A stretch of DNA of 35,649 nt from a virus: positions 1-35,649 of IMG/VR virus record IMGVR_UViG_3300021960_000246. One strand, given 5' to 3'. Below the pieces are notes generated by a model, which was not told the DNA's origin, made no database searches, and worked only from the letters and a program-made list of their open reading frames with translations. Numbering within the stretch: position 1 is the stretch's first letter; each line of letters starts with the position of its first letter. Positions 165 to 30,787 of the stretch are shown here, piece after piece. Made by a program: the position numbers and the translations under genes.

Positions 165-1592
165 ATGCCTAAGATGCAGATACCCAAGAAGATGCTACCT
201 TTCTTGCAGCCAGCCCGATACAAAATCTGCATCGGCGGCAGAGGCAGTGGGAAGAGCATGACGATGGGTGATCTGTGCTTACAGGCAGCACAGATGCAGG
301 GCATCAAGACGCTCTGCGCTCGTGAGTTCCAAGCCAGCATTGACGATTCTATCCACACGCTGCTTTGTGCCGAGATAGAGCGGCTAGACCTAAAAGGATT
401 TGAGATCCAGCGCAATGAGATCCGTTACAACAATGAGACGGCATTCAAGTATATCGGGCTTGCGAGATCGCCAGAGTCTGTGAAGTCATACCACGGCTTC
501 CACAGGGTTTTTGTGGACGAAGCTCAGACAATCTCAGAGGCCAGTCTAAAGGCTCTCACGCCTACGCTCAGGACGGCAGGCTCAGAGATATGGATGGCAG
601 CTAACCCAAGGTCAGCCGCTGATCCATTCTTCCTACGATTCGTTAAGCCGTTTGAGAAAGAGCTGCGGCGAGATGGCGTTTATGAGGATGAGCATCATAC
701 GATTGTCTGGATGAATTATAGCGATAATCCAGCATTCCCAGAAGTCTTGGAGCAAGAGCGAGCCTATGACCAAGAGCATATGTCAGCGGCTCTTTATGCT
801 CATGTCTGGGAAGGCGAGACGTATGATGAGAACGAAGACTCAATCATTCCTGTTGAGTGGTTCTTGTCGGCGGTAGACGCTCATGTAAAGCTAGGCTGGA
901 AGCCTGAAGGCGCGATCATAGCCTCTCACGATCCATCGGATGAAGGCGGTGACAGCAAAGGCTTCACGCTTAGGCACGGCAACGTGATATTAGATGTGTG
1001 TGAAATGGTAACAGGCGATGCAAGTGAAGGCATGGACTGGGCTCTGGACAAGGCGCTGAAGGCTAACGCTGACCATTTCATTTGGGACGCTGACGGTCTT
1101 GGGGTAAGCCTCAAGCGGCAGGTAGATCAGGCGCTAGCAGGCAAGAACAGCATCAAGTACAGTATGTTCAAAGGCTCAGAGGCTGCTGAAGACCCAGAGC
1201 TACCGTACACCAGCGGCGGCATCCAGCGAGACAAGACCAACCGTGAGACCTTCAAGAACAAGCGAGCGCAATACTGGTGGCGGCTAAGAGACAGGTTTGA
1301 GGCCACGCACAGAGCTGTGACCAAAGGCGAGTATGTGAACCCAGAGGACATGATCAGCCTATCCTCGGAGATAGCAGTGCTAGACCAGCTACGCGCTGAG
1401 GTATGCCGCATACCACTTAAACGGAACAACGCTGGCAAGATACAGATACTCAGCAAGATAGAGATGGCAAAGCCTCCTTATCGGTTGCCGAGTCCGAACA
1501 TGGGTGATGCGCTGATGATGTCGCTGCATTCGCCTAAAGCAATAAACCAACAGAAGGTTGTTTTGAACTTCTCAGGATGGAAGCATGGCTAA
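165..1592 (+). CDS. terL: Terminase large subunit (TerL), DNA-packaging ATPase and nuclease
   Basis: This 475-residue protein would cut concatemeric DNA and pump it through the portal into the prohead. The N-terminal ATPase shows a Walker A motif GGRGSGKS at residues 24-31 and a Walker B motif VFVDEA at 115-120. The C-terminal RNase H-like nuclease has acidic candidates in SHDPSDEGGD (Asp256 and onward), WDADGLG (308-313) and a late MGDALMMSL motif. Length and motif order fit TerL of pac-type podoviruses such as P22. The ATG at 165 is chosen because earlier ATGs near 148 and 151 run into a stop after a few codons. It overlaps the portal gene by 8 bases, implying coupled translation. Confidence 0.95.
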   Translation: MPKMQIPKKMLPFLQPARYKICIGGRGSGKSMTMGDLCLQAAQMQGIKTLCAREFQASIDDSIHTLLCAEIERLDLKGFEIQRNEIRYNNETAFKYIGLARSPESVKSYHGFHRVFVDEAQTISEASLKALTPTLRTAGSEIWMAANPRSAADPFFLRFVKPFEKELRRDGVYEDEHHTIVWMNYSDNPAFPEVLEQERAYDQEHMSAALYAHVWEGETYDENEDSIIPVEWFLSAVDAHVKLGWKPEGAIIASHDPSDEGGDSKGFTLRHGNVILDVCEMVTGDASEGMDWALDKALKANADHFIWDADGLGVSLKRQVDQALAGKNSIKYSMFKGSEAAEDPELPYTSGGIQRDKTNRETFKNKRAQYWWRLRDRFEATHRAVTKGEYVNPEDMISLSSEIAVLDQLRAEVCRIPLKRNNAGKIQILSKIEMAKPPYRLPSPNMGDALMMSLHSPKAINQQKVVLNFSGWKHG

Positions 1593-3831
1593 AAAAGACG
1601 ATTATGAATACGAGAAAGACTCTAAGAAAGAGTATGGCGAGGACACTTATAACTCTTCGAGCTATGAAGATCACGAGTATGTGGCTAACCTGCTTTCTGC
1701 TTCTCAGGAGGCTGACCAAGACCTGCGCGACAATGGGCGCGAGGCTGCGTTGTTTGTGGATAAGCGTGATGGTCAATGGGAACCCTATTGGTACAGCAAC
1801 GCGAAAGAGTCCAAGTCTCCGCGCTACAGCTTTGATATGGTTAATCCGATTATTGATCAGGTTTGTTCGGAGATTGACCAAGCCTCCTTTGATGTCTCTG
1901 TCTCTCCTGCTGGCGGCAACAGTACCAAGGACATAGCGAATACCTACTCAGGCATTGTTCGTAATATTGAGTCTATGTCTGATGCTAGCGAGGTCTACAA
2001 CCACGCTGCTCGCACTATGGTGACTACTGGCTTTGGCGCTTGGCGCGTTGTGCATAAGTACGTCAGTCAGGATAGCTTTGACCAAGACCTGTTTATTGAG
2101 CCTATTGGCAATGCCTTAGACAGAGTATGGTTTGATCCTGCGGCAGAGAAGCAAGACAAGTCAGACTCACGCTATTGCTTTATCCTTCACGCAATCGGTA
2201 AGCAAGAGTATGACCGGCGTTTCCCAGAAGGCTCTGGCGAGTCAGTAGATGAAGGCCGTGATGGTGAGGCTTACTATGACAAGGCTGAGGTCGTGGTTAT
2301 TGGTGAGCTATTGTACTGCGAAGAGGAAGAGCGTGAGCTTGCAATGATGTCCAATGGTCAGGTTCATGAGGTTGACGATGACTTCAAGAAGATAGCTGAT
2401 GAGCTTGAATCCATTGGAGTGACAGAAGTACGCAGGCGTAAGCGCGTCAAGAAGTCGGTCTGCTCACGGTTATTTGACGCTAGTGATTGGCTTGAAGAGA
2501 AGAAAGAGACAGTCTTCAGCATGATTCCGGTGATTCCTATATTTGCCAACTACAAGATATTTGAGAACAAGACGATCTTCTGGGGACTCGTAGAGAAGCT
2601 GATGGACTCACAGCGAGTGCTGAACTACTCAGTCAGCCGTGAGGTAGCAGAGACTAGCCTTGCGCCAAGGTCTAAGTATTGGATGACAATGAGTCAGGCT
2701 GCTGGTCATGAAGATTCATTACAGACGCTGAACACTAACCACGATCCAGTGCAGTTCTTCAACGTAGATCCTGAGTACCCGCAAGTACCTCAGCAGCAAG
2801 GTGGCGCACAGATCAACCCAGCGCTACGCACAATGTCTGAGGCTATGCGAGGCATGATTACTTACGCCTCTGGTATGTTCTCCAGCAACATGGGTGACAA
2901 TCCACAGAATCAGTCTGGCGTTGCTATCAATGCTCTACAGAACAAAGGCGATAACTCTACGATCAAATACTTCAAAGCCTTGGAGTTTGGCATTCGTGCC
3001 ACTGGTCGCATCTTGGTGTCTGCCATCCCAGAGATATACGACTCAGCGCGTACTGTGAGGCTGCTGAAGGAAGATAACACCTATGACGTTGCTGACATCA
3101 ACCAGAAGGTTATAGACCAACAGACAGGCGATGTGGTGACTGTGAATGACCTGTCGGTAGGTAACTATGATGTGCAGGTCAAGGCTGGTGCGAGCTTCAA
3201 GAATCGTCAACAGGAGACTATTGAAACAATCATTGAGATTGCTAAGGTCGATCCAAGCATCCTCCAGATCGCTGGTGATGTCCTGCTAGACAACGTGGCT
3301 ACGGCCTCAGCTCAGCAAATCTCTGACCGCAAACGCTCACAGATGATAGCTGCTGGCCTGATACCTCAAGACCAGATGACCGAAGAAGAGCTGACGGCAG
3401 CGCAGCAGCAGCAAGGCGAGCCACAGCAAGACCCAAACATGGTCTTGGCACAGGCCGAGCAGATGAAGGCTCAGGCCGAAATGCTGCGAGCGCAGATAGA
3501 GCAGGCCAAGCTCCAGAACGAGCAGATGAAGCTACAGCTAGAAGCGCAGAAGCTCCAGACGCAGATGCAAGGCGATCAGGCTGAAAACCAGATAGACTTC
3601 TTCAATGCAGAGACTAAGCGCATGGACACTCAGATCAAGGCTCAGCAGGCAGGAGCTACGATTGACAGGACAAGCGCACAGGCAGTAGGCGAGCAGCTCA
3701 ACAACCAAGAGAAGATGGCTGACATCAGCGACAGGCAACGTGCAGAGGCCGAGAGGATGCGAGCTGAGGCTCAGCGCAGAGCCATGAGATATATGTCCGA
3801 CTCTGAGATAGCGAGAATGCAGAATGGCTGA
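1585..3831 (+). CDS. P22-type portal protein
   Basis: At 748 residues this is close to the 725 of the P22 portal gp1. It would form the dodecameric vertex through which DNA enters and leaves the capsid, binding TerL during packaging and the gp4-like adaptor afterwards. The N-terminal half carries the conserved core, including NPIIDQVCSEI and a segment ending DRVWFDPAA. The last roughly 150 residues are a Gln-, Lys- and Glu-rich helical stretch full of AQ/EQ repeats, matching the position of the long C-terminal barrel of the P22 portal. Its ATG lies inside the end of terL, and the next gene starts 8 bases before its stop. Family assignment is firm; the barrel function is by analogy. Confidence 0.92.
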   Translation: MAKKDDYEYEKDSKKEYGEDTYNSSSYEDHEYVANLLSASQEADQDLRDNGREAALFVDKRDGQWEPYWYSNAKESKSPRYSFDMVNPIIDQVCSEIDQASFDVSVSPAGGNSTKDIANTYSGIVRNIESMSDASEVYNHAARTMVTTGFGAWRVVHKYVSQDSFDQDLFIEPIGNALDRVWFDPAAEKQDKSDSRYCFILHAIGKQEYDRRFPEGSGESVDEGRDGEAYYDKAEVVVIGELLYCEEEERELAMMSNGQVHEVDDDFKKIADELESIGVTEVRRRKRVKKSVCSRLFDASDWLEEKKETVFSMIPVIPIFANYKIFENKTIFWGLVEKLMDSQRVLNYSVSREVAETSLAPRSKYWMTMSQAAGHEDSLQTLNTNHDPVQFFNVDPEYPQVPQQQGGAQINPALRTMSEAMRGMITYASGMFSSNMGDNPQNQSGVAINALQNKGDNSTIKYFKALEFGIRATGRILVSAIPEIYDSARTVRLLKEDNTYDVADINQKVIDQQTGDVVTVNDLSVGNYDVQVKAGASFKNRQQETIETIIEIAKVDPSILQIAGDVLLDNVATASAQQISDRKRSQMIAAGLIPQDQMTEEELTAAQQQQGEPQQDPNMVLAQAEQMKAQAEMLRAQIEQAKLQNEQMKLQLEAQKLQTQMQGDQAENQIDFFNAETKRMDTQIKAQQAGATIDRTSAQAVGEQLNNQEKMADISDRQRAEAERMRAEAQRRAMRYMSDSEIARMQNG

Positions 3832-5890
3832 ACGCAGCCCCAGCGCAGGATCATCGGCTCTTAACGCCATAGCGCAGCAGGAGCAAGCAAAAAAATACTC
3901 CTTGCAAGGTAGGACGCAGGTAGCTCCTCGTGTTCAGACTATGCAGAACGCCAGACCTACATTCAGGTCAGCTTTAAGCAACTTTATGCGTGATGCAATA
4001 GATGCGACAGGTCTGGAAGGTGGATACCGTCAAGGTCTTCTTAATGCCGCTGGAGGCGTTGAAACAGCAGCAGATTTCTTGCCAGTGGTCGGTGACGTTC
4101 TTGGCCTAGAGGACGCATCAAGAGCCTATGCACAAGGAGACATGGTTGGCACTGGCATTAACATGATGGGCGTTGTGCCTATTGTTGGCGATGCAGCCTC
4201 TAAAGTTGCAAAAAAAGCTAGAAGCAATTTGCGGAACATATACCACGGAACAAGTTCTGATTCTGCAAAAGCAATAGATAAATTTGGTTTTGATCTTGAT
4301 AAATCCGCAGACGGTTCTGCTTGGTTTACCACAAACCCAGATATCGGTGAGGTAGCAGCAGCCGGTGAAGGTGGAATTGTTCAACGCCAAATAGATGACT
4401 CTCAACTAAAGTTAGCCAGCTTTGATGAAACGGATAAATACTCAAACGGTCAACTCATAGATATGGGTTATGACGGCGCATATTACCCAGACGGAGAAGG
4501 CGGCGCTCATTACGAAATATGGAATCAGGATAAACTTAATAAGTTACCTTCATTAACTATTGGAGACACTCCGCTGGAAGGCGCTCCGTCTTTGCCGAGA
4601 ATCCCAGAGCGCGGCCCTGTTCGTGTTGGCCCTAACCCTGAAGTAGCAGCCGCCGCTCAAGATTACTCGCAACTTTCTGGCATTCCTTCTCAGCCAATCG
4701 TCCGTTATGTCTCTGTAGATGAGCCAAGAGCTACACAGATAGCTAGAGAATATGACTTGATGAGGCACGATCCTCAAAACCCTGAGGTAAAACGCTCTTA
4801 TGATGCAATGATTGAAGAAACTTTAGGACAGTATGAGTCTTTGATAAATAGAGGAATTGAGCCTTATTTTATCAATGATGTTGATCCTTATAAAAATAGC
4901 CCATACGAAGCGTTGATTGATCTTGAGCAAAATAGACGCTTAGGAATATTTCCTACTCGCTCTGGGTTTGGAAGCGATGTTAATTTTGATCCTAAAGATA
5001 ATCCTTTATTGGGTGAGTCAGGTTATAATATAGGCGGTCAACCTGCTCTAAATAATGACATTTTTAGATTTGTTCACGATGCAATGGGGCATGGTAGAGG
5101 TGGTGTAGGATTCAGGGCAATGGGCGAAGAAAACGCCTACCAATCTCATGCTGGAATGTATTCTCCATTAGCAAGGCGAGCATTAGCATCAGAGACCAGA
5201 GGACAAAACTCTTTCTTAAACTATGGGCCTAATGCTGAAGCAAACCGCACAGCTAGTGTTGAAGACACCATATTTGCAGACCAGAAAACAGGATTGATGC
5301 CGAGGTACGCATCTGAGTCAGGATTGATAATCAATGACGATAAGCGAGAAAGATTTTTTGATGCTTTGCGCCGTGGTGAGACAGGGCTGGAAGGAGCAGT
5401 CACAGATGATGGAAAGCTGCGAATCATCCACAGATCAAACCGGCCCATTGAGCGAGTCGATCCAGAAATGTACGGCGAAGGACTCTCTGGTAGGACCATT
5501 GCTGAAAGAAATAGAGCCTCAGACCCAGATTTCGTCAAGCGCTCCTATTACGGTATCCCTGCATCGGAGAATCCGTATAGACAAGAGATGGGAATAGGCA
5601 GCATTCAAAATGAAGTTTTAATTGAGCCTGAATTGCTTTATGACGCTAGGAAAGACCCTGATAAATTATGGACTCCAAATGATACAACTGCTTCCGAAAA
5701 GCGCATAGCAGACAGCAATTACACTGGCTATTTTGTAGACCATCCAAAGCTAGGCAAGGTTGCTGCTATATTTGATCCTTATGATATTACTAAGACATAC
5801 ATGGTTCCTTTGGCTACTGGCGCTGGAGCGCTAGGTGCTGTTTCGGCTTTGCGCGATGAAGAAAAAGAAATTACTGAGCCAAAATCTTAA
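3824..5890 (+). CDS. Multidomain virion-associated protein with two ADP-ribosyltransferase-like domains
   Basis: This 688-residue protein has at least three recognisable parts. Residues about 138-240 look like a small ADP-ribosyltransferase (ART) domain: it opens with IYHGTSS (His141), has AWFTTNPD near 166-173, a GYDGAYY segment, and HYEIW with a candidate catalytic Glu231. Residues about 290-500 form a domain seen in other phage structural-region proteins, with HDAMGH at 418-423, GEENA at 434-438 and ETRGQN at 457-462. Residues about 530-660 look like a second, divergent ART-like domain: IIHRSNR (His536), RSYYG, LYD, YTGYFVD, then AAIFDP. The N-terminus and residues 80-125 are Gly/Ala-rich and hydrophobic. 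It overlaps the portal gene and precedes the scaffold, so it is probably made with, and packaged in, the virion. Enzyme activity is inferred from motifs only. Confidence 0.7.
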   Translation: MAERSPSAGSSALNAIAQQEQAKKYSLQGRTQVAPRVQTMQNARPTFRSALSNFMRDAIDATGLEGGYRQGLLNAAGGVETAADFLPVVGDVLGLEDASRAYAQGDMVGTGINMMGVVPIVGDAASKVAKKARSNLRNIYHGTSSDSAKAIDKFGFDLDKSADGSAWFTTNPDIGEVAAAGEGGIVQRQIDDSQLKLASFDETDKYSNGQLIDMGYDGAYYPDGEGGAHYEIWNQDKLNKLPSLTIGDTPLEGAPSLPRIPERGPVRVGPNPEVAAAAQDYSQLSGIPSQPIVRYVSVDEPRATQIAREYDLMRHDPQNPEVKRSYDAMIEETLGQYESLINRGIEPYFINDVDPYKNSPYEALIDLEQNRRLGIFPTRSGFGSDVNFDPKDNPLLGESGYNIGGQPALNNDIFRFVHDAMGHGRGGVGFRAMGEENAYQSHAGMYSPLARRALASETRGQNSFLNYGPNAEANRTASVEDTIFADQKTGLMPRYASESGLIINDDKRERFFDALRRGETGLEGAVTDDGKLRIIHRSNRPIERVDPEMYGEGLSGRTIAERNRASDPDFVKRSYYGIPASENPYRQEMGIGSIQNEVLIEPELLYDARKDPDKLWTPNDTTASEKRIADSNYTGYFVDHPKLGKVAAIFDPYDITKTYMVPLATGAGALGAVSALRDEEKEITEPKS

Positions 5891-6000: not shown

Positions 6001-6810
6001 ATGCAACCAGACGATATGGTCGATGAGACTCAAGATGTTGAGTTTGAAGACATAGAGGATGTAGATCAGGAAACTGATTCCGATTCATCAGCGGATACTG
6101 ACGAAGGTCAGGAGAAATCTACTAGACCTGTTTTTAACGAAGAACAGCAGAAGGCTTTTGACAAGGCTATGGCTGAGAAGACTTGGAAGGCGCGAGAAGC
6201 AGAGCGTCAGGCCGAGGACTATCGCAATCGCCTACAAGAGCTAGAAGCTAGGCTTCCTAAAGAACAGCCGCCCGAAGTGCCGAAAGTGCCTGACTTCTAT
6301 AGTCTCTCTGATAGAGAGATACAGGAGCAGCTCCGACAGCGTGATGAGGCGATTGCTAAGCGAGCAGAGTTTGAGGCTAGGCAGCAGGCCATGCAAGGTC
6401 AGCAGCTAGAATTACAGCGTCAACAGCAAGCAGCGGCAATTAGTGAGCAGAATGCGAAGATCGCAACCTACGCAGAACGCTCTAAGAAGCTCGGTGTAAA
6501 GACTGAGGATCTGCAAAGCGCAGCTAACAAGATAGGCCAGTTTGGGATAAACCCAATGCTGTCCAGCCATCTAATTGATTTAGAAGATGGAAGTCTTGGA
6601 ACTCTGTACTTAGGTCAGAATCTCTTAGAGTTAGATAAGCTGGCGAATATGCCTGCTAATCAAGCGTTGCTGTATTTAGATCAGACCATTATGCCAAAGG
6701 CTAGAAAACTTAAACCTAATGTAAATGCCGCTCCTGATCCACTAGACACGCCAAAAGGTGCTGGGGTAAGTCCCAAAGCTGGTGGCCCTAAAGGAGCAAC
6801 TTTTGAATGA
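6001..6810 (+). CDS. Capsid scaffolding protein
   Basis: The protein has 269 residues with a very acidic N-terminus (residues 1-40 rich in Asp and Glu), a long central helical region rich in Gln, Glu and Ala (about 45-165), and a basic C-terminus with KARKLK. Position between portal and coat and the helical composition match P22 gp8-type scaffolds, which bind coat through a basic C-terminal segment and leave the capsid before packaging. The last residues, KGATFE, recur almost exactly at the ends of two small basic proteins downstream. Sequence similarity to known scaffolds is weak by eye, so the call rests on position and composition. Confidence 0.8.
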   Translation: MQPDDMVDETQDVEFEDIEDVDQETDSDSSADTDEGQEKSTRPVFNEEQQKAFDKAMAEKTWKAREAERQAEDYRNRLQELEARLPKEQPPEVPKVPDFYSLSDREIQEQLRQRDEAIAKRAEFEARQQAMQGQQLELQRQQQAAAISEQNAKIATYAERSKKLGVKTEDLQSAANKIGQFGINPMLSSHLIDLEDGSLGTLYLGQNLLELDKLANMPANQALLYLDQTIMPKARKLKPNVNAAPDPLDTPKGAGVSPKAGGPKGATFE

Positions 6811-6826: not shown

Positions 6827-8089
6827 ATGGCTAATAATCTTAATAGCAACGTCACACGGAAAGTCGCTCGTGTCTTCTTAGATGCCTTTGAGGCTTCTCG
6901 TGTAGTAACAAAAACTGTCAACACTCAACTGTTGTCAGGCAAATTCAATCCTTCTAGCGGTTCAAATGTAGACTTTAAGCGTCCGCATGACTACAACACA
7001 ATCCGCACTTCTGGCGGTGATATCAGTGCTTCTACTAAGTCTGACATCATTGCTGGTAAAGCAACTGGTACAGTTCAAAACTACTTCACAGCCGCTACAG
7101 AATGGGGCAACGTGGAAGAGGCTCTTGAGCTAGACCAGTTAGACCAAATCCTTGAGCCAATGGCTCGCAGAATCGTAACTGACCTTGAGCTAGACCTTGG
7201 CGCGTTCATGCGTAAGAACGCAGCGTTGACCTATGGTGATCGTGGTACTGTTGTTGATGCTTGGTCAGACGTAGCAGGTGCTGGTGCGTTGATGGACTCT
7301 GTTGGCGTTCCAATGTCAGACGAGAAATACTATCTGATGAACCCATTCACAACCACTGCGCTGTCATCAGCTCAGAACGGTCTGAATGCGTCTGACGGTC
7401 TTGTTCGCACAGCTTGGGAGAGAGCGCAAATCAGCCAGAACTTTGGCGGCATGATGGCTCTGACTTCTAACGCTCTCAGCAGCTATACGTCTGGTTCTAC
7501 CACTGATCGTGCAGGCGCATTGAATGGCGCTCCTGACGCGACTTACGTCACAGCCAAGGACACCATGCAGCAGACTTTGGTTCTTGATGGTCTGGGTACT
7601 GGTACTATCAAAGCTGGCGATCAGGTAACTATTGCAGGCGTTAATCGTCTAAATGTTGCTACTCGTGAGCTTATCCTTGATAGCGCAGGTGCTGCTGTTC
7701 CGTGGACAGGCACTGTCCTTGAGGATGTTACTATCGCTGCTAACGCTGCGACTATTACAGTCTCTGGCGCGGCTATCTACGAAGCTAACGGTCAATACAA
7801 CAACGTAGACGCAGCTCCTGCTGACGGCGCGGTTGTGACTATCCTTGGTGCTGCGTCAACTGTCTATCAGCCTAATATGTTCTTCACCAAGCAAGCGTTT
7901 GGTCTTGGAACTGTGAAGCTGCCTAAGCTGTACTCAACCGATACGATTGCAACTACCAGCGATGGTATGAGCATCCGTGTGTCTAAGTACGCAGACGGTG
8001 ACGCTAACACGCAGAAGATTCGTTTCGATTTGCTTCCTGCGTACGCCTGCTTCAATCCTCTGTTTGCCGGAAGCGGATTTGGAAAGTAA
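6827..8089 (+). CDS. Major capsid (coat) protein, P22 gp5-like
   Basis: The 420-residue length fits P22 gp5 (430). It would form the icosahedral shell by the HK97 fold. Features in keeping with the P22 group are an N-terminal helix with FLDAFEASRVV, a central helix around LELDLGAFMRKNA, and a beta-rich inserted domain in the second half containing AGDQVTIAGVNRL, which resembles the GDKISFAGV region of gp5. A good ribosome binding site (gaggtg) lies about 9 bases upstream of the ATG. A strong terminator follows. There is no sign of a protease or a delta domain. Confidence 0.9.
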   Translation: MANNLNSNVTRKVARVFLDAFEASRVVTKTVNTQLLSGKFNPSSGSNVDFKRPHDYNTIRTSGGDISASTKSDIIAGKATGTVQNYFTAATEWGNVEEALELDQLDQILEPMARRIVTDLELDLGAFMRKNAALTYGDRGTVVDAWSDVAGAGALMDSVGVPMSDEKYYLMNPFTTTALSSAQNGLNASDGLVRTAWERAQISQNFGGMMALTSNALSSYTSGSTTDRAGALNGAPDATYVTAKDTMQQTLVLDGLGTGTIKAGDQVTIAGVNRLNVATRELILDSAGAAVPWTGTVLEDVTIAANAATITVSGAAIYEANGQYNNVDAAPADGAVVTILGAASTVYQPNMFFTKQAFGLGTVKLPKLYSTDTIATTSDGMSIRVSKYADGDANTQKIRFDLLPAYACFNPLFAGSGFGK

Positions 8090-12005: not shown

Positions 12006-12492
12006 ATTAGTCACAACACTATTCGGCGGCGAATCAGACAAAGGCATTAAGGCTCAAGAAGGCGCAAACAGAGAACTGATGCAATTTATGGAACGTCAAC
12101 AAAATATGGCTAGGTCTGATATTCGACAAGCTATGCCTAGCCAATATGGAGCAATGACAGCAGGCCAGCAGGCTGGATTAGATGTTTTTGGGCAAACAAT
12201 GCCTCAGCAAGCCGATGCCTTTGTTGGTGGCAACGTAGCTGCACAACAGGCGCTTCTTGCAGGAATGCCTATGTACGAACAGGCGATTAGAGGCACTAAT
12301 GTAAACTATGGCAACTTGCAGCCATATCAAGGTAGTTACGATATGTCTTTTGCTCAACAGCAGCTACCTGATGCGGTGGCTAATCCTGAGTATATACAGC
12401 AAATTGCTCAAAATAATACGGCAAATTCTTTAGGTGGAATGGGTATAGATGCCGCCACTTTAGCCGAACTTGAAGCGCTGAGGTATTCCTAA
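11998..12492 (+). CDS. Putative ejection protein, small (164 aa)
   Basis: A Gln-, Ala- and Met-rich protein with segments such as MQFMERQQNMARSDI and AAQQALLAG, compatible with a helical virion-interior protein. It begins inside the gp14-like gene and ends in a TAATG overlap with the giant repeat protein. P22 encodes ejection proteins gp7, gp20 and gp16 at this place, and this one occupies the gp7 slot, but no sequence identity can be claimed by eye. The name is based on position and composition. Confidence 0.6.
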   Translation: MSKLVTTLFGGESDKGIKAQEGANRELMQFMERQQNMARSDIRQAMPSQYGAMTAGQQAGLDVFGQTMPQQADAFVGGNVAAQQALLAGMPMYEQAIRGTNVNYGNLQPYQGSYDMSFAQQQLPDAVANPEYIQQIAQNNTANSLGGMGIDAATLAELEALRYS

Positions 12493-15400
12493 TGGAAGAG
12501 AATTTTACTGAAGGTCTTGGCGGCATAGGAATAACGCCAGAGAGCATTGTGATTGATTATATTAATGGCAATCCAAATGCTTCTTTGTCTGATATATCTA
12601 ATTTAATACAGCAGACCGGAGCAAATCTTGACTCCCTATCGGCTACATTTGGAGTTGATCCAGCTGAAGCTAGGACTGCTTATAATCAAGCACTAAGCGG
12701 GCCTAGCGCGGCAGATCAAGCAGCAGAGCAAGCAGCGGCAGCTCAGGCTGAGGCGGCAACAGTTGCAGCTCAGGCTAATACGGCAGCATTGGCAGCGACT
12801 GAAGTAGCAGAAACAGAAGTTGCGGCAAAAACTGGTCTTCAGAATGTTCTTGATTTTGTTTCCCAAGGAAATAAATCTGATGAAGATATTTATAGAGAGA
12901 TGGTTAAAAATGATGTCAGCATTGAGCAAGCTGCTGCCGCTGTAAATTATCCAATAGATGAAGCTACCGCTAGATACTCTCGCGCTCAAGAAATGGTTCA
13001 AATTGATGACATAGCGAAAGGCGGTGTTGAAAAGGCGTTAAAAGATTTTCCTAATGGCATCCCAGATAATTTAATAGCTCGCTATGTTTCAGAAACGACA
13101 GACTCTGCCGAAAAAATAGCTGGGTATATGGATGGGCTTGGTTTAACTCCTGACGATATGTCTAGGGCCACTGGGCTTCCTTTAGCTGATGTACAAGCAG
13201 CGTATAACCAAGCAAAAGACGGTGGTGCTACAGAAGGAACCGGCAGCACTGTTGCGGGAGCTTCTGTAGCAGGAGGAACCGGATCAGGAGCTGATTCTGG
13301 AACAACCTCTGTGGCTTCTTCAACAGCAGTAGGAGGCCGAGCTGGAAGCGGCGGTCAAACTGGGCTATCGGGAGCAGAACGCGCTTTAGCTGGTGGAGTT
13401 ACGGCTGCTGCACAGGCTATCGAGTCAGGCGCTGGTCAGGCTAGATCTGATTTACTTGCTGGCACTGAATTGGCTCGTAATGATCTTGCGACAGGAGCAA
13501 CAGAAGCAACTGGCGCAATCAACACTTCTACAAATCAAGGTCTTCAGGCTTTAAGTTCTGGCTTGCAGTCTGGTCAGTCTCAGATTCAGCAAGGCACTAA
13601 CCAAGGTCTTCAGGCTTTAACGGCTGGCTTGCAGGCAGGCCAATCTCAAATTCAGCAAGGTACTAACCAAGGCTTACAAGCGCTTACTGCTGGAATTCAA
13701 TCTGGTCAGCAGAATATAAATCAAGGCGCATCCGCAGGACTTCAAGCGTTAGGGCAAGGGCTTGGAGTTGCTAGAGGAGATGTTGCTTCTGGAACTGCGG
13801 CTGGATTACAAGCGCTTGGTCAAGGATTGGGTGCGGCAAGGCAAGATATTACCTCAAGCACAGGACAAGGCTTACAGGCTCTTGGTCAAGGCTTAGGCAC
13901 AGCTAGACAAGATATCGCAGGCGGCACACAAGCTGGCCTTCAAGCTCTTTATCAAGGTCTTGGTGGCGCTAGAACAGACCTTCAGGCAGCTCAACAAGCT
14001 GCTAGTCAACAGTACGGAGCAGGTCTTGGAGACATCACACAAGCTCGTGATCTTGCGTCTCAGCAAGTTGGTCAAGCCTTTGGTCAAGCTGGTCAGATGT
14101 TTGATCCGTATCGTCAGGCAGGCGCTGCGGCAACACAGCAACAGGCGGCGTTATCAGGCGCTCTAGGACAAGAAGCATTTAATCAGGCATTTCAAGAAAG
14201 TCCTGCTCAACAGTTCTTGCGCGAGCAAGGTGAAAGAGCAGCGCTGCGAACGGCCTCTGCTCGTGGCGGCTTAGGTGGCGGCAACGTCATGAAAGAACTA
14301 TCTAGGTTTAACACTGGCCTTGCTGCTCAAGACTTACAGAACCAGATAGGCAACCTTCAGGCTCTAGGCGCTCAAGGTCTTGGCGCTAGTGGAAGTGCTG
14401 CTCAACTAGCCGCTCAAGGTGGCTCAGCCCAAGCTGATTTGCAAACGCAAGCAGCTCAACAGATGGCGGCTCAGCGCGGTCAAGTGGCTCAGTCGCAGCT
14501 AGGAACTGGTCAGCAGTTAGCAGGACTTGGCACTCGTGCCGCTGAGTCAGGTTTGGGCGCTTTAACTCAGGCAGGACAACAGCTTGGTCAATTAGGAATA
14601 ACTGGCGGCACACAAGGCTTGCAAGCAATGCTTGGTCAAGGACAACAGCTAGGTCAGTTAGGCGTTACTGGTGGTACTCAAGGATTAAACACAATCACAG
14701 GTTCGGCGGGAAGATTAGCCGACATGGCTTACGGTGCTGGCGGTCAAAGCCTTCAGTCATTACAGCGAGCAGGAGAGCAGACAGGTCAAATGGCTTACGG
14801 CGGTGGCACTCAAGGCTTGCAGGCGCTACAAGGCATGGGCAGAGATTTAGGCCAGATGTCTTACGGTGCTGGTCAGACAGGCTTGCAGGCTTTGCAAAAC
14901 ATGGGTAGTGAGCTAGGACAAATGTCTTACGGCGCTGGCGGTCAGGGCATGAATGCTTTGATGTCATCAGGCAACAGCATAGCCGATATACTTAGTGGTA
15001 GGTCTTTAGGTCAATCTCAGCTTGCAATGCAAGCAGGTCGTGGCCTTGGTGACATAAGCATGACCGGAGGAATGACAGTTGGTGATTACCTCTATGGAAC
15101 TGGTGGCGCTCTGGCTCAAAACAGGATGATGGCAGGCCGAGACATTGCTGGAAATATTACTAATCAAATTAATGCGCTTGCAAATTATCAATCTGGTCAA
15201 GGCGCGGGTATGTCTGATCTAATAGGTCAGCAAGGAAATACTCTGGCAGGTATGCAAACCGGAGCGGGTGCTGGAATGTCTAACCTGATTGGAGGTACTG
15301 CTGGTCAACTAGCAGGAATCGCCACAGGAACTGGCGCAGCTTACAACCCAGCCAGATTGGGTGGAACAAGTCAGGTTAAAGGCATTATTCCTGCTGCGGG

Positions 15401-15656
15401 TCAAGCTATTGGGCAAGGAATTGCAGCATTCAACTTAGCTTCTGACATCAGACTTAAAGAAAACATTGAGCAGGTAGGAATAACCTCAAGCGGTCATAAT
15501 TGGTATAAATGGGATTGGAACAAAGCAGGTAAATCCATTGCCAAGGATCAGCCTTCTTATGGCGTTATTGCTCAAGAGGTAGCAAACAAAGATTCTTCTG
15601 CTGTAATTATAGGCGATGACGGTTATCTCCGAGTAGATTATACAAGGATATTATAA
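12492..15656 (+). CDS. Large repeat-rich ejection-type protein with a C-terminal S74-like chaperone domain
   Basis: This 1054-residue protein is probably a virion-interior or tail-tip protein delivered at infection. Residues about 15-240 hold three diverged helical repeats, each ending in a motif like DPAEARTAYNQA or PLADVQAAYNQA. Residues about 345-500 contain seven or so roughly 21-residue repeats built on QGLQAL..GLQ.G. Residues about 690-835 hold a second series built on GGTQGLQAL..LGQM.YGAG. The last 71 residues begin SDIRLKENI and include YGVIAQEV and RVDYTRIL, the signature of the Peptidase_S74 intramolecular chaperone normally found at the end of tail fibres and endosialidases. Composition is extremely rich in Gly, Ala and Gln. 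Downstream ejection-type genes follow without gaps. Confidence 0.7.
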   Translation: MEENFTEGLGGIGITPESIVIDYINGNPNASLSDISNLIQQTGANLDSLSATFGVDPAEARTAYNQALSGPSAADQAAEQAAAAQAEAATVAAQANTAALAATEVAETEVAAKTGLQNVLDFVSQGNKSDEDIYREMVKNDVSIEQAAAAVNYPIDEATARYSRAQEMVQIDDIAKGGVEKALKDFPNGIPDNLIARYVSETTDSAEKIAGYMDGLGLTPDDMSRATGLPLADVQAAYNQAKDGGATEGTGSTVAGASVAGGTGSGADSGTTSVASSTAVGGRAGSGGQTGLSGAERALAGGVTAAAQAIESGAGQARSDLLAGTELARNDLATGATEATGAINTSTNQGLQALSSGLQSGQSQIQQGTNQGLQALTAGLQAGQSQIQQGTNQGLQALTAGIQSGQQNINQGASAGLQALGQGLGVARGDVASGTAAGLQALGQGLGAARQDITSSTGQGLQALGQGLGTARQDIAGGTQAGLQALYQGLGGARTDLQAAQQAASQQYGAGLGDITQARDLASQQVGQAFGQAGQMFDPYRQAGAAATQQQAALSGALGQEAFNQAFQESPAQQFLREQGERAALRTASARGGLGGGNVMKELSRFNTGLAAQDLQNQIGNLQALGAQGLGASGSAAQLAAQGGSAQADLQTQAAQQMAAQRGQVAQSQLGTGQQLAGLGTRAAESGLGALTQAGQQLGQLGITGGTQGLQAMLGQGQQLGQLGVTGGTQGLNTITGSAGRLADMAYGAGGQSLQSLQRAGEQTGQMAYGGGTQGLQALQGMGRDLGQMSYGAGQTGLQALQNMGSELGQMSYGAGGQGMNALMSSGNSIADILSGRSLGQSQLAMQAGRGLGDISMTGGMTVGDYLYGTGGALAQNRMMAGRDIAGNITNQINALANYQSGQGAGMSDLIGQQGNTLAGMQTGAGAGMSNLIGGTAGQLAGIATGTGAAYNPARLGGTSQVKGIIPAAGQAIGQGIAAFNLASDIRLKENIEQVGITSSGHNWYKWDWNKAGKSIAKDQPSYGVIAQEVANKDSSAVIIGDDGYLRVDYTRIL
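13530..13970 (+). repeat. Tandem coding repeats, QGLQAL type
   Basis: About seven degenerate units of roughly 63 bases encode the motif QGLQAL followed by SGLQ, TAGLQ or GQGLG and then a QSQIQQG- or ARQDI-type segment. Codon choice varies between units, so the repeat is kept at protein level. It predicts a long amphipathic helical rod or solenoid. Confidence 0.8.
14550..14990 (+). repeat. Tandem coding repeats, GGTQGLQAL / LGQMSYGAG type
   Basis: A second, distinct repeat series of roughly 69-72 bases per unit encodes GG(T/Q)QGLQ, a short helix, then (L/T)GQ(L/M)xYG. About six units can be read, the middle ones sharing MAYG or MSYG. It lies in the same protein as the first series, separated by a non-repetitive stretch. 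Confidence 0.8.
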
Positions 15657-25117: not shown

Positions 25118-25338
25118 TTGAATTTCAAACAGGGTTTAACATCTTTCTGGCAATCGTAAGTTTTGGCGGCGGCTGGCTAGTCAATCGGGTTTTCGTACTG
25201 TTAGACCGCATAGATGCCGATATGAAACAGATACCGGAAAAATACGTGGCTAAAGACGATTACCGTGAAGACATCCGCGAAATCAAAGAAATGCTTGGCG
25301 CGATATTTAAGCGTTTAGAAGGCAAGGCTGACAAATGA
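25114..25338 (+). CDS. Single-span membrane protein with coiled-coil tail (74 aa)
   Basis: One N-terminal transmembrane segment (FNIFLAIVSFGGGWLVNRVF, residues about 8-27) is followed by a charged coiled coil containing KYVAKDDYREDIREIKEML. This is a frequent small protein beside phage lysis genes. The shape fits an inner-membrane spanin or a holin regulator, but no family signature decides between these. It overlaps both neighbours by 4 bases. Confidence 0.65.
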   Translation: MIEFQTGFNIFLAIVSFGGGWLVNRVFVLLDRIDADMKQIPEKYVAKDDYREDIREIKEMLGAIFKRLEGKADK

Positions 25339-26075
25339 AACTTGATCCTGTCCTTCTAAAGATTGCGTGTTCTTGGTCTATTAAGGCTTACAACGATACT
25401 AATCGTGATGCTATAAAGATTGAAAACAGGATTACAGGAGCCACGGCTTTTGTAATCAAGCGCAAGACCATTGATATCATTGCGTTCCGTGGTACAGAGA
25501 AAAAGCTAAACGATATTCTCACAGACCTGACTGCCATCCCAGTTCCGTATGCTGGCAGGATGTGCCACGCAGGTTTCGCTCTACAACACGCTTCTATCTG
25601 GAAAGAGATCAAGAAGCACATTGACCCAAAGAAGCGCACATTATTTACGGGACATTCACTCGCGGGAGCTCTCTCCGAAATATCAGCCGCCATTTTGATG
25701 CAGGAAAATAAGAAAAGAAGTAAGAAAGGAAATAAAGACATTTATAAGAATATAAACCTCGTCACGTTTGGAAAGCCTAACGTCTTTTTCAAAGGCTTTA
25801 AGCGACCTATGAAGTTAGATACGCAAATTTCTTGTGTCAATGGGAGCGATGCTGTGGCTAGAATTCCTCGTCTCTGCTACGGCCCTAGCATATCTCAAGA
25901 TATGCTGTACTTCTCTAATGGAGGAGTAGACTACATAAATCCGTCCAAATACCTTCGCAAGAAGGATAGAGGTATAAAAGACCGCATCTCAGACCACTTT
26001 ATGGAAGGTTACAAAGAACGACTAACCCAATTCTTAGAGGACCAGAAAAATGGTAAAACTGGCGTTAATATTTAG
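25335..26075 (+). CDS. Class 3 lipase-like hydrolase
   Basis: This 246-residue alpha/beta hydrolase has the class 3 (fungal lipase-type) arrangement. FRGTE at 51-55 is an oxyanion-loop-like motif. GHSLAG at 106-111 carries the nucleophile Ser108, GSDAVARIP carries the candidate acid Asp172, and SDHFMEGY carries candidate His221, so all three triad residues are visible. No signal peptide is seen. It lies inside the lysis cassette between a membrane protein and a lipoprotein gene, overlapping the latter by 26 bases. It may act on membrane phospholipids late in infection, but the substrate is unknown. Confidence 0.85.
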   Translation: MKLDPVLLKIACSWSIKAYNDTNRDAIKIENRITGATAFVIKRKTIDIIAFRGTEKKLNDILTDLTAIPVPYAGRMCHAGFALQHASIWKEIKKHIDPKKRTLFTGHSLAGALSEISAAILMQENKKRSKKGNKDIYKNINLVTFGKPNVFFKGFKRPMKLDTQISCVNGSDAVARIPRLCYGPSISQDMLYFSNGGVDYINPSKYLRKKDRGIKDRISDHFMEGYKERLTQFLEDQKNGKTGVNI

Positions 26076-26725: not shown

Positions 26726-27167
26726 AATGGACAAGCTAATTGAAATGCTCAAGCGCCACGAAGGTGTCGAGACTCATGCGTATGACGATACTGGCGCACC
26801 AGTAGATTGTCTGGGCAAGATCACGCTAGGCGTAGGCAGAAACATTGATCCTCGCGGTGGTATCGGTCTGTCGATGGATGAGATTGAGTACCTGCTGTCT
26901 AATGACATCCTGCGTTGCATTAAAGAACTAAGCAAAGAATACCGCTGGTTTGGTGAACTTGATGATATTCGGAGAGAAGCGGTAATAGATGCGTTCTTTT
27001 GTCTGGGCGCAACACGCTTCCGCACTTTCTCAAAGATGATTAAAGCGTTTGAAGACGCAAATCACAAAGAGGCTTCAATGCAGCTATTGGATAGCCGTTT
27101 TGCAAAACAAACAGGTAGACGCGCAATAGAGCTATCAGCGATGATTGAGACCGGAAAATATGTATGA
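26712..27167 (+). CDS. Endolysin, GH24 T4-type lysozyme
   Basis: This 151-residue muramidase cleaves peptidoglycan glycan strands. The catalytic motif is intact: Glu17 in HEGVETHAYDD, Asp26 nine residues later as in T4 lysozyme, then ITLGVGRN with Thr38. The loop between Asp and Thr is longer than in T4. There is no signal peptide or SAR segment, so release depends on the holin. It is coupled to the holin gene upstream and to the nuclease gene downstream by overlaps. Confidence 0.93.
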   Translation: MEKNKMDKLIEMLKRHEGVETHAYDDTGAPVDCLGKITLGVGRNIDPRGGIGLSMDEIEYLLSNDILRCIKELSKEYRWFGELDDIRREAVIDAFFCLGATRFRTFSKMIKAFEDANHKEASMQLLDSRFAKQTGRRAIELSAMIETGKYV

Positions 27168-27561
27168 ATACAAATGCAAGATCGTAAAAGTCGTTGATGG
27201 AGATACTGTCGATGTTGACGTTGATTTGGGTTGGTCTATTAGTGTTCGTAAGCAGCGCATACGTTTGTACGGTGTTGACGCTCCCGAATCTCGCACTAGA
27301 GATTTGGAAGAAAAAAAATACGGCAAAGCCTCAAAGAAATTTGTCAAAGACTTCCTTAACAGCGACAACATACTTCTCAAGACGCGAGAAAAAGGTAAGT
27401 ACGGTAGGTATCTAGGAGACTTTTGCGTAAATGATAAATGGCTCTGCAATGAAATGATTGCGGCTTATCATGCCGTTCCTTACTATGGTCAAAACAAATC
27501 AGAGATACAAAAAGCTCACAAAGAAAACTACTTGAAGCTAAAGGAAAAAGGTTTTATTTAA
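27160..27561 (+). CDS. Staphylococcal nuclease-like (thermonuclease) protein
   Basis: From the ATG at 27160, which overlaps the lysozyme stop, the protein has 133 residues. An upstream TTG at 27145 would add five residues and is less likely. The nuclease core is clear: VVDGDTVDV, then RIRLYGVDAPE with Arg35, Asp40 and Glu43, and KGKYGRYLG with Arg83. These are the catalytic residue types of the family, a Ca-dependent phosphodiesterase. No signal peptide is visible, so the enzyme would act in the cytoplasm or be released at lysis. Its last codons overlap the end of the opposite-strand operon. Confidence 0.88.
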   Translation: MYEYKCKIVKVVDGDTVDVDVDLGWSISVRKQRIRLYGVDAPESRTRDLEEKKYGKASKKFVKDFLNSDNILLKTREKGKYGRYLGDFCVNDKWLCNEMIAAYHAVPYYGQNKSEIQKAHKENYLKLKEKGFI

Positions 27562-29324: not shown

Positions 29325-29602
29325 CAGAACGGTATGTCCTCAAAGGTAGCTGATTCTGCTGGAGCCGCTGGTGAGCTTTCAAGCGGAGCTGCCCATTTCA
29401 GCGATATGTATGGCTGGCCTCCGTCCTTAGACTCGTTCCTCCAGCCTTTAAGACTGATCTTGCCATTCTTATTAAGATTAACAGCGCCTTGCTCGTAAGC
29501 AGCGAGTAGAGCCTTCAGCGACTCAGGATCAATAGAAGCATAATAGCTGTCATCGTACTGTGACTTATTAACGCTTGTAAGCGTGGTAAATTGATTGCTC
29601 AT
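29324..29602 (-). CDS. Small SSB-like protein with an acidic C-terminal tip (92 aa)
   Basis: It ends ATFEDIPF, which closely matches the ..DDIPF acidic tip of bacterial single-strand DNA-binding proteins that recruits repair and replication partners. The body has a lysine- and aromatic-rich beta segment (KNGKISLKGWRNESKDGGQ and YISLKWA), compatible with a reduced OB-like fold, and a proline/alanine linker before the tip, as in SSB. It lies between annealase/exonuclease and NinG. SSB identity is inferred; it is shorter than typical SSB. Confidence 0.6.
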   Translation of the reverse strand: MSNQFTTLTSVNKSQYDDSYYASIDPESLKALLAAYEQGAVNLNKNGKISLKGWRNESKDGGQPYISLKWAAPLESSPAAPAESATFEDIPF

Positions 29603-30206
29603 TTAAATTCTCCGTTTCGGTTTTAACATATTTGGCTGCGTCAATTAGAATCGGCACAGCCTTATCAATAAACTCATCATCGCGTTTTACCTCAACAATC
29701 AGCGGTTTAAGGTCTGGGTGGTAGCTGAAGAAGAAGTAGCGATCTACTTCAAGCAGCCACATACTCAGTTGAACTTGTTGAACATACTCCACAGGCAGCT
29801 TCTTATTACGCATATAACGAACATGAGTAGAGGCTCGTGGTGACTTAATCTCTACGCCAGTGTCAGACTCAAGCGTAAACAGGCCATCTGGCGAGCATCC
29901 TATGTCATAATCGTCATGAAGGTGGAAGCCTACCTCTTTGACATCTACCTCCATAATGGCGGCAAATAGGTCTCGTGCTGCGCCTTCACGCTCGTTACCG
30001 CGCTCCATGTCGGCATTCTTAAAAGTATCCACAGGCTCTCCTGTGAGCCTCTCAGCAATGACTTGGTTAAGGTAAGTATCACGAGTAGAAGATGCAGTCT
30101 TTTCACCACGGCTAGTTACCAGTGACTTAAAGCTAGATGCAGTTATGCAACCAGCTCTCAGTGCCAACCATTCGTCAGTACCTTGCTCAACGTAGTGAAC
30201 TCTCAT
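29568..30206 (-). CDS. YqaJ/lambda-type exonuclease
   Basis: This 212-residue protein has the viral recombinase nuclease core: QGTDEWLALRAGCITAS at 8-24, GNEREGAARDLF at 70-81, CSPDGL with Asp107, VEIKSP with Glu119 and Lys121, and YVQQVQLSMWL near 141-151. These are the metal-binding and QxxxY-like elements of the PD-(D/E)XK exonuclease group. It would resect double-stranded ends to give 3' single strands for the neighbouring ERF annealase. The start and stop overlap neighbours. Confidence 0.9.
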   Translation of the reverse strand: MRVHYVEQGTDEWLALRAGCITASSFKSLVTSRGEKTASSTRDTYLNQVIAERLTGEPVDTFKNADMERGNEREGAARDLFAAIMEVDVKEVGFHLHDDYDIGCSPDGLFTLESDTGVEIKSPRASTHVRYMRNKKLPVEYVQQVQLSMWLLEVDRYFFFSYHPDLKPLIVEVKRDDEFIDKAVPILIDAAKYVKTETENLNEQSIYHAYKR

Positions 30207-30787
30207 AATGCTGCCTCCAACTGATCAATGCGGCCTTGAATGATATTAGCTTGATCATTTGTTATAACCCAAGTCTTAGCTCCAGCCTTAGATAAAGCAG
30301 CCTCCTCTGGAACATTAAGATCAGAGAGCTTTGCGCGTATCTTAGCAACCGTCTCATCAGTAGCTAACTTTGGCTTTGCAGCAGGCTTTTTTCGGTTGCC
30401 ATGAGTAGCGAAGTCACCGCCATCATCCAATTTCGGATCTGAAATTAGAAAAAGGCTTGCGAGAAGATAGCGCTTTGCGTAAGTGTAGCAGCCGCCAGTT
30501 GCTTGGGCGCTGCGTTCTTTCTTGTCAACAAAGCATTCTTGGCAGTAATGCTGACCGCTATTCTCGTGCTTCAGCCAGATGCGAACTCCTGCTTGATGCT
30601 CTTGATTAAGGTCTTCAAAGTAAAAAAAGATGCCTTGCCCTGATAAAACTCTATGTACAGCAGGCAACAAGTCTTCTAGCTTGTGGTACTTATGACCATT
30701 AGCAAAGCTGTTGACTCCTGACTTCTTTGGTGAGGTGAAATTAGATTGGGCCGCTGAAAACGCTGCCCAGAAGTGTGCTTGTGACAT
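30203..30787 (-). CDS. erf: ERF-family single-strand annealing protein
   Basis: This 194-residue protein has the Erf core: AAFSAAQSNF, KYHKLEDLLPAVHRVLSGQG, and the diagnostic CYTYAKRYLLASLF at 100-113 with SAQATGG just before it. Erf of P22 promotes annealing and circularisation of phage DNA. The C-terminal part is a basic linker followed by a helical segment. It is the first gene of the leftward operon, with GGGAG upstream of the ATG. Its exonuclease partner overlaps its stop by 4 bases. Confidence 0.88.
   Translation of the reverse strand: MSQAHFWAAFSAAQSNFTSPKKSGVNSFANGHKYHKLEDLLPAVHRVLSGQGIFFYFEDLNQEHQAGVRIWLKHENSGQHYCQECFVDKKERSAQATGGCYTYAKRYLLASLFLISDPKLDDGGDFATHGNRKKPAAKPKLATDETVAKIRAKLSDLNVPEEAALSKAGAKTWVITNDQANIIQGRIDQLEAAL

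Follow-up and report, generated by a model that had tools for sequence, protein, structure and literature searches.

A protein with two ADP-ribosyltransferase-like domains and a recurrent short peptide in a variable slot of the head gene cluster of marine P22-type podoviruses

The 35,649-nucleotide viral contig IMGVR_UViG_3300021960_000246, analysed over its whole length and referred to here as the window, carries on its plus strand a P22-type head gene cluster in which an open reading frame (ORF) at positions 3824-5890, encoding a protein of 688 residues, lies between the portal gene and the scaffold gene. The start of the ORF overlaps the portal ORF by 8 nucleotides, an arrangement already recognized in the initial annotation of the sequence, and the scaffold gene on its 3′ side is followed by that of a P22-type coat protein. 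Relatives with 62-100% identity are encoded in the same position in independent contigs, and the ORF is therefore not a chance one. The gene is an occupant of a variable effector slot in a lineage of marine P22-type podoviruses, and nearly all of the proteins encoded in that slot, here called slot proteins, have in common a short peptide, S-[AS]-L-R-[GDNE]-[ILV], which tracks the phage lineage and the slot and not the enzyme.

Relatives in viral contigs divide the slot protein into four modules: an N-terminal leader, a first ADP-ribosyltransferase (ART)-like domain (ART1), a middle domain (MID) and a second ART-like domain (ART2) (Table 1). The modules are also found in other combinations, such as the leader and ART1 alone (L018), the leader with MID and ART2 (L007, L008 and L010), and, in L016, the leader and ART1 ahead of a PBECR5 nuclease domain (Pfam PF18814, E 1.1e-17). 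The whole protein has no match in Pfam at E<1, and a search of PHROGs matched the central part alone, to the functionally unannotated phrog_3170 (E 5e-17), which agrees with the earlier expectation of an unrelated conserved domain between the two ARTs. Close relatives of the whole protein were not found in bacterial genomes, and sequence searches of the PDB with the full protein and with a MID profile returned nothing relevant. In one contig (L186:5537-6263 and L020) the leader-ART1 gene is broken by a frameshift inside ART1, which may be either a sequencing error or decay.

A search based on the leader found 76 loci which, where the flanks are readable, have a P22-type portal gene directly upstream and scaffold and coat genes downstream; the exceptions are L260 and L262, which match 43 leader residues only and are excluded from the motif counts. 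The C-terminal parts of the slot proteins fall into several unrelated groups. Matches above the Pfam cut-off are found to ART-PolyVal in L257 (two stretches), L196, L208 and L209 and to Zeta_toxin in L247, while some cassettes appear GNAT- or ParB-like by eye, for which Pfam gives no support. A second search was anchored on the coat protein to avoid a bias towards the leader and gave 80 loci in related marine contigs; the slot is readable in 50 of these, occupied in 48 and empty in two. Many of the occupants have other leaders, and some contain LPD23 together with an HExxH segment, or a weak methyltransferase match. Three proteins of the former kind (L306:4327-6060, L316:876-2579 and L338:3855-5849) have a zincin peptidase-like HE[IVL]xHAVSxxEGR segment, and two of them, L306 and L316, have SALN instead of SALR; in a slot protein of 964 residues (L349:2211-5102) the methyltransferase match lies between ART-like and other polyvalent segments. 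Among isolated phages the leader has no match below E 5, and no gene of this kind occupies the slot in Pseudoalteromonas virus H6/1 or Vibrio phage 234P9, the isolates closest in coat and portal. The presence of two ARTs, originally singled out as the special feature of the protein, is shared with L257, and other slot proteins have one ART or none; what distinguishes the locus is rather the slot and its common peptide.

Between the slot gene and the scaffold gene, 37 loci (among them L197, L204, L210, L226 and L242) have an antisense acidic ORF of about 57 residues (M[SN]D...FETDDP...), often with a GGAG-type site before its start and with a mean proportion of synonymous differences (pS) of 0.50 against a nonsynonymous one (pN) of 0.20. 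It is missing from the window, and could encode an antitoxin or a regulator of the slot gene.

The peptide motif is located at the N-termini, module junctions and C-termini of the slot proteins and also between successive cassettes. Among 48 distinct complete proteins, [ST]xLR is found at the leader junction in 41 and within the final 30 residues in 34, where shuffled sequences would give 0.58 and 0.77, respectively. The motif consists of Ser (85 of 88 copies), Ala or Ser, Leu, Arg, then mostly Gly, Asp, Asn or Glu and mostly Ile, Leu or Val, and occurs in 16 upstream contexts that are mutually unrelated at a 35% identity threshold. The Ser, Leu and Arg codons vary freely, with every one of the six Leu and six Arg codons in use, and copies within one gene differ in DNA, as do the two strict copies in the window; selection thus acts on the peptide. 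The leader, the S-x-L-R motifs at residues 134 and 674 and the SALNAI variant at residue 11 had all been absent from the initial annotation.

The motif is enriched in the slot proteins and restricted to this lineage. In the contigs of the leader set, 96 copies are present in 54 slot proteins (3.35 per 1000 residues) and none in 93,563 residues of structural proteins, whereas homologues of MID and ART2 outside this set contain nine copies in 213,277 residues (0.042 per 1000). A full reading of six of these homologues (L036, L037, L038, L049, L179 and L187) found no motif; it is present in L028 and L030, whose neighbouring portal is closely related. Of the 39 distinct slot proteins in the coat-anchored set, 32 have the strict motif (1.5 expected), some of them with unrelated leaders, and the structural segments contain one strict copy in 126,123 residues. 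The idea that the motif merely accompanies the leader module is rejected, since coat-recruited slot proteins without that leader carry it, and a DNA repeat is rejected on the diversity of the codons.

The sequence motifs from which two ARTs had first been read are present in the protein (YHGT at residue 140, AWFTTNP at 166, HYEIW at 229, IIHRS at 534, RSYYG at 573, LYDAR at 605 and YTGYFVD at 633), and structure prediction agrees strongly with an ART for the first domain and moderately for the second. A model of residues 1-250 is confident over ART1 only, the predicted local distance difference test (pLDDT) score being below 50 over most of the leader. Of the 50 best PDB fold matches of ART1, nearly all are ARTs (probability up to 0.92, best E 0.045), including diphtheria toxin, domain III of exotoxin A, PARP15, PARP14, PARP10, tankyrases and MbcT. 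The model of residues 250-665 has a mean pLDDT of 95 and a predicted template modelling score of 0.93; its best PDB match is the anti-CRISPR protein 6kyf (E 0.16, probability 0.60), with tankyrase-2 and MbcT lower down, and among predicted viral proteins it matches a small "PolyVal ADP-Ribosyltransferase" at E 9.5e-4, all of these matches being attributed to ART2 from the length and type of the target and not from aligned ranges. The 6kyf structure is that of AcrIF11, an ART of the diphtheria-toxin-like type whose residue set, H-F-H-D, is non-canonical (PMC12421852). At the sequence level, ART1 scores 14.3 bits against Pfam ART-PolyVal (PF18760; E 0.073), under the curated cut-off of 31.2, and a profile comparison of ART2 with ART-PolyVal gave a probability of only 7%, so that the case for ART2 is one of structure and not of sequence. 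No MuF domain, the other family initially suggested for comparison, was matched in Pfam. In the alignments, His141 is kept in every ART1 sequence that covers the position, and His536, Glu588 and Tyr606 of ART2 are invariant, which is in line with the earlier choice of the two histidines as key residues. An ART fold is thus well supported by modelling for ART1 and probable for ART2.

MID belongs to a large family of at least about 590 confirmed viral stretches, with 61 loci in bacterial and archaeal genomes, and many of its copies are found within giant polyvalent proteins. Isolated-phage records that match the slot protein are, in 187 of 200 cases, Mycobacterium phages matched at MID; in most of these the domain lies in a hypothetical protein of Bixzunavirus phages, exemplified by gp107 of Mycobacterium phage Ava3 (L026:3776-5077). 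Stand-alone MID genes of about 220-300 residues are present in bacterial chromosomes (L128-L163, mostly Micromonosporaceae, and L117-L126, from Chryseobacterium, Aquimarina, Ruegeria and others). An alignment of 38 sequences has His418, Asp419, His423, Glu435, Glu457 and Gln461 invariant, and the H-D-x-x-G-H spacing with a downstream Glu is reminiscent of the iron site, formed by two His and one Glu, in aromatic amino acid hydroxylases. When profiles were compared with these enzymes, the alignment covered just the motif (14 columns, probability 40%, P 2.9e-4; two unrelated control pairings gave 0.2% and 0.6%), the fold search of the MID-ART2 model reached human phenylalanine hydroxylase (1tdw) only at E 3.8, and PF00351 is not among the families listed for the 38 members, for which Pfam and NCBIfam gave scattered chance matches only. 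MID is accordingly not accepted as a true biopterin-dependent aromatic amino acid hydroxylase, the resemblance being confined to the motif, and is instead predicted to be a metal-dependent domain of unassigned type.

Table 1 Features of the slot locus in the window; module limits are approximate
Feature	Residues	Position	Strand	Basis
P22-type portal gene, upstream		1585..3831	+	PF16510, E 1.7e-143
Slot protein, 688 residues: leader, ART1, MID, ART2, hydrophobic tail		3824..5890	+	ORF and translation; position kept in relatives
SALNAI variant, N-terminal	11-16	3854..3871	+	same variant at N-terminus of L306 and L316 slot proteins (no strict motif)
Leader module, helical, hydrophobic	35-131	3926..4216	+	alignment; 76 loci; pLDDT below 50 over most of leader
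SNLRNI, motif at leader/cassette junction	134-139	4223..4240	+	motif reading and counts
ART1	135-245	4226..4558	+	model pLDDT about 85-95; ART fold matches; PF18760 sub-threshold, E 0.073; alignment
MID	256-512	4589..5359	+	phrog_3170 family; alignment; high-confidence model
HDAMGH, invariant His-Asp-x3-His of MID	418-423	5075..5092	+	alignment; on one helix of model
Invariant Glu of MID, in SETRGQ	457	5192..5194	+	alignment
ART2; His536, Glu588, Tyr606 invariant	525-662	5396..5809	+	alignment; model; fold matches AcrIF11 and PolyVal ART
SALRDE, motif near C-terminus	674-679	5843..5860	+	motif reading and counts
Scaffold gene, downstream; possible motif-binding partner		6001..6810	+	phrog_8865 head scaffolding, E 1.5e-19
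P22-type coat gene; possible motif-binding partner		6827..8089	+	PF11651, E 1.3e-74

Elsewhere in the window, a Lipase_3 protein is encoded among the late or lysis genes (25335-26075, plus strand; Pfam E 2e-14; esterase/lipase in PHROGs), a staphylococcal-nuclease-like protein adjoins a phage lysozyme gene (27145-27561, plus strand), and a RecE-like exonuclease is paired with an Erf-like annealing protein (29568-30787, minus strand). A putative ejection protein of 1054 residues (12492-15656, plus strand) has a Peptidase_S74 chaperone-like domain at its end.

Short capsid-targeting sequences are known from T4 and P1 (PMC9024508), the loading of ejection proteins in P22 depends on the scaffold (PMC8402733), encapsulin cargo peptides have a G-S-L-R core (PMC7925596), and ARTs encoded beside portal genes are reported as likely to be packaged in the head, NAD-ADP-ribose systems being less common in podoviruses (PMC9503650). 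Against this background we lean towards the view that the slot protein is a head-packaged, injected polyvalent effector from a variable slot, with the motif as its loading tag, which appears to be the best explanation of the whole. The effector would consist of a flexible hydrophobic leader, an ART, the enzyme-like MID and a second ART, and would probably be produced together with the head proteins. The coat or the scaffold would bind the motif during procapsid assembly and thereby load the protein, which would exit the head with the DNA into a new host, where the effector domains would act at once, the ARTs modifying host targets and perhaps defence factors. Any module placed together with the motif would in this way become cargo. 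The motif itself is most likely a tag bound by the coat or the scaffold, by analogy with the capsid-targeting sequences of T4 and P1 or with the cargo peptides of encapsulins. Of this account, the gene, its domains and predicted folds, the slot, the exchange of modules and the enrichment and lineage restriction of the motif are shown, whereas packaging, injection, catalysis, the targets and the role of the tag are inferred. More tentatively, S-[AS]-L-R-x-[ILV] may be the cargo code of the P22-type head, a peptide of about six residues that would bring encapsulin-like loading to a tailed phage and feed a hypervariable effector slot.

Several points weigh against this interpretation. Packaging in the virion, which the initial annotation had considered likely and which is favoured by the gene position across relatives, by slot siblings with polyvalent effector domains and by published precedent (PMC5512222, PMC9503650), is deduced from these three lines, and the coat and scaffold are candidate partners of the tag only. 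The likeness between the motif and the encapsulin peptides is limited to four residues, and the two diverge at the position that follows Arg. The coat-anchored proteins without the strict motif contain variants such as SALNAI and SSMREL, except for one fragment and one protein with STLRLE. The shuffle expectations take no account of relatedness, and for this reason the number of unrelated contexts and the contrast between lineages weigh more than the raw ratios. Finally, none of the individual fold matches to solved ARTs is below E 0.001, and Glu231, proposed earlier as catalytic in ART1, gives way to Gln in L187 and to Arg in L193, so that it is unlikely to have this function. The lack of a conserved Glu at this position and the weak sequence scores to ART-PolyVal would also be expected if one or both ART domains were catalytically dead binding modules. 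We regard this as quite unlikely, given that His141 and His536 are invariant, that ART2 retains the invariant Glu588 and Tyr606, and that some active ARTs lack the canonical Glu, AcrIF11 being active with H-F-H-D in place of H-Y-Y-E (PMC12421852).

The motif could instead be a protease site. The slot protein would then be a polyprotein from which cleavage at every S-x-L-R, within the head or following injection, releases the leader and separate effector domains. The location of the motif between the leader and the cassettes and between successive cassettes would suit such a role, as would the HExxH segment of some slot proteins, and zincin-like peptidases have been suggested to process multidomain polyvalent proteins (PMC5512222). 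However, in 25 of the 31 C-terminal cases no more than 2-3 residues separate Arg from the stop codon, so that a cut there would free almost nothing, and in a scan of ten late and accessory proteins of the window the only match to a peptidase family was the S74 chaperone domain in the ejection protein, which makes a protease site unlikely. A binding tag fits better than a cleavage site because the motif is present at both termini and at junctions, often this close to the stop. That it marks module borders, across which leaders and cassettes have clearly been exchanged, would likewise be explained if it were a functionless recombination scar, the exchange having used short identity at the S-A-L-R codons. 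This is very unlikely in view of the full range of Leu and Arg codons and the DNA differences between copies in one gene; conservation of the amino acids despite saturated synonymous change, which speaks against a scar, is already suggested by these data, and the motif also occurs at the very ends of proteins, both N- and C-terminal, where a module after it would not have to be exchanged.

Another reading is that the slot protein is not packaged and is made late in the infected cell, for instance directed against rival phages or acting as a toxin related to lysis or exclusion, with the motif binding a host protein. The leader resembles the pre-toxin linkers of polymorphic toxins, and the acidic antisense ORF adjoining the gene in 37 relatives is conserved and could be an antitoxin. 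On the other side are the position between portal and scaffold, the very strong confinement of the motif to the lineage, the window's lack of the antisense ORF and the known packaging of such ARTs (PMC9503650), and we consider this reading rather unlikely.

Slot proteins and polyvalent proteins (Iyer et al. 2017, PMC5512222) have in common several effector domains per polypeptide and a location among the virion genes of portal-terminase phages. At least two disparate effector-type domains are found in the window protein (ART1, MID and ART2) and in L016 (ART1 and PBECR5), both encoded among virion genes of this kind, and slot and polyvalent proteins share the domain kinds ART-PolyVal, PBECR, LPD23 and, in giant proteins, MID. 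In contrast to the latter, slot proteins are of medium size and confined to a single fixed position in the head module of P22 type, and the short motif bounds their exchangeable leaders and cassettes. T4 Alt and other head-packaged ARTs (PMC9503650) are similar in the ART fold, the proximity of the gene to head genes and presumed injection, whereas the slot protein is from a P22-type podovirus, has diphtheria toxin/PARP-like ARTs, lacks a MuF fusion and has two ARTs around an unrelated domain. AcrIF11 resembles the MID-ART2 model as its best solved fold match and in its non-canonical residue set; it is, however, a small stand-alone protein, while ART2 is part of a multidomain one, and the likeness seen is of predicted fold and not of sequence.

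As regards the motif, the capsid-targeting sequences of P1 DarB and T4 IPIII are short signals that send internal, injected proteins to the head (PMC9024508), which is the likeness proposed here; those signals are N-terminal, whereas the slot motif is found at termini and junctions in a P22-type phage. Encapsulin cargo-loading peptides, with their G-S-L-R core, are short, located at cargo ends and bound inside an HK97-fold shell (PMC7925596); the motif is like them by sequence resemblance only, and here the shell would be a phage coat. Bacterial polymorphic toxins similarly join leaders to exchangeable C-terminal toxin-like domains, but the slot is a phage head locus, with no immunity gene in the window. 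A small literature search found no description of a fixed slot with exchangeable leaders and cassettes and a common short motif. The slot protein belongs with the polyvalent phage effectors, and its possible loading code would be novel.

While head-packaged ARTs and polyvalent proteins are known, the choice of cargo is understood in few phages. The locus is in this respect a natural experiment, in which dozens of unrelated modules occupy one slot and have little in common but one short peptide, and homologous modules elsewhere lack it. The slot also provides a short list of candidate early-infection effectors, including the MID family, which is widespread and unannotated and extends to stand-alone bacterial genes and many mycobacteriophages. 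If the peptide is a loading tag, it would allow the selection of cargo by P22-type heads to be tested directly and injected effectors to be discovered by their motif, and it would provide a link to encapsulin loading.

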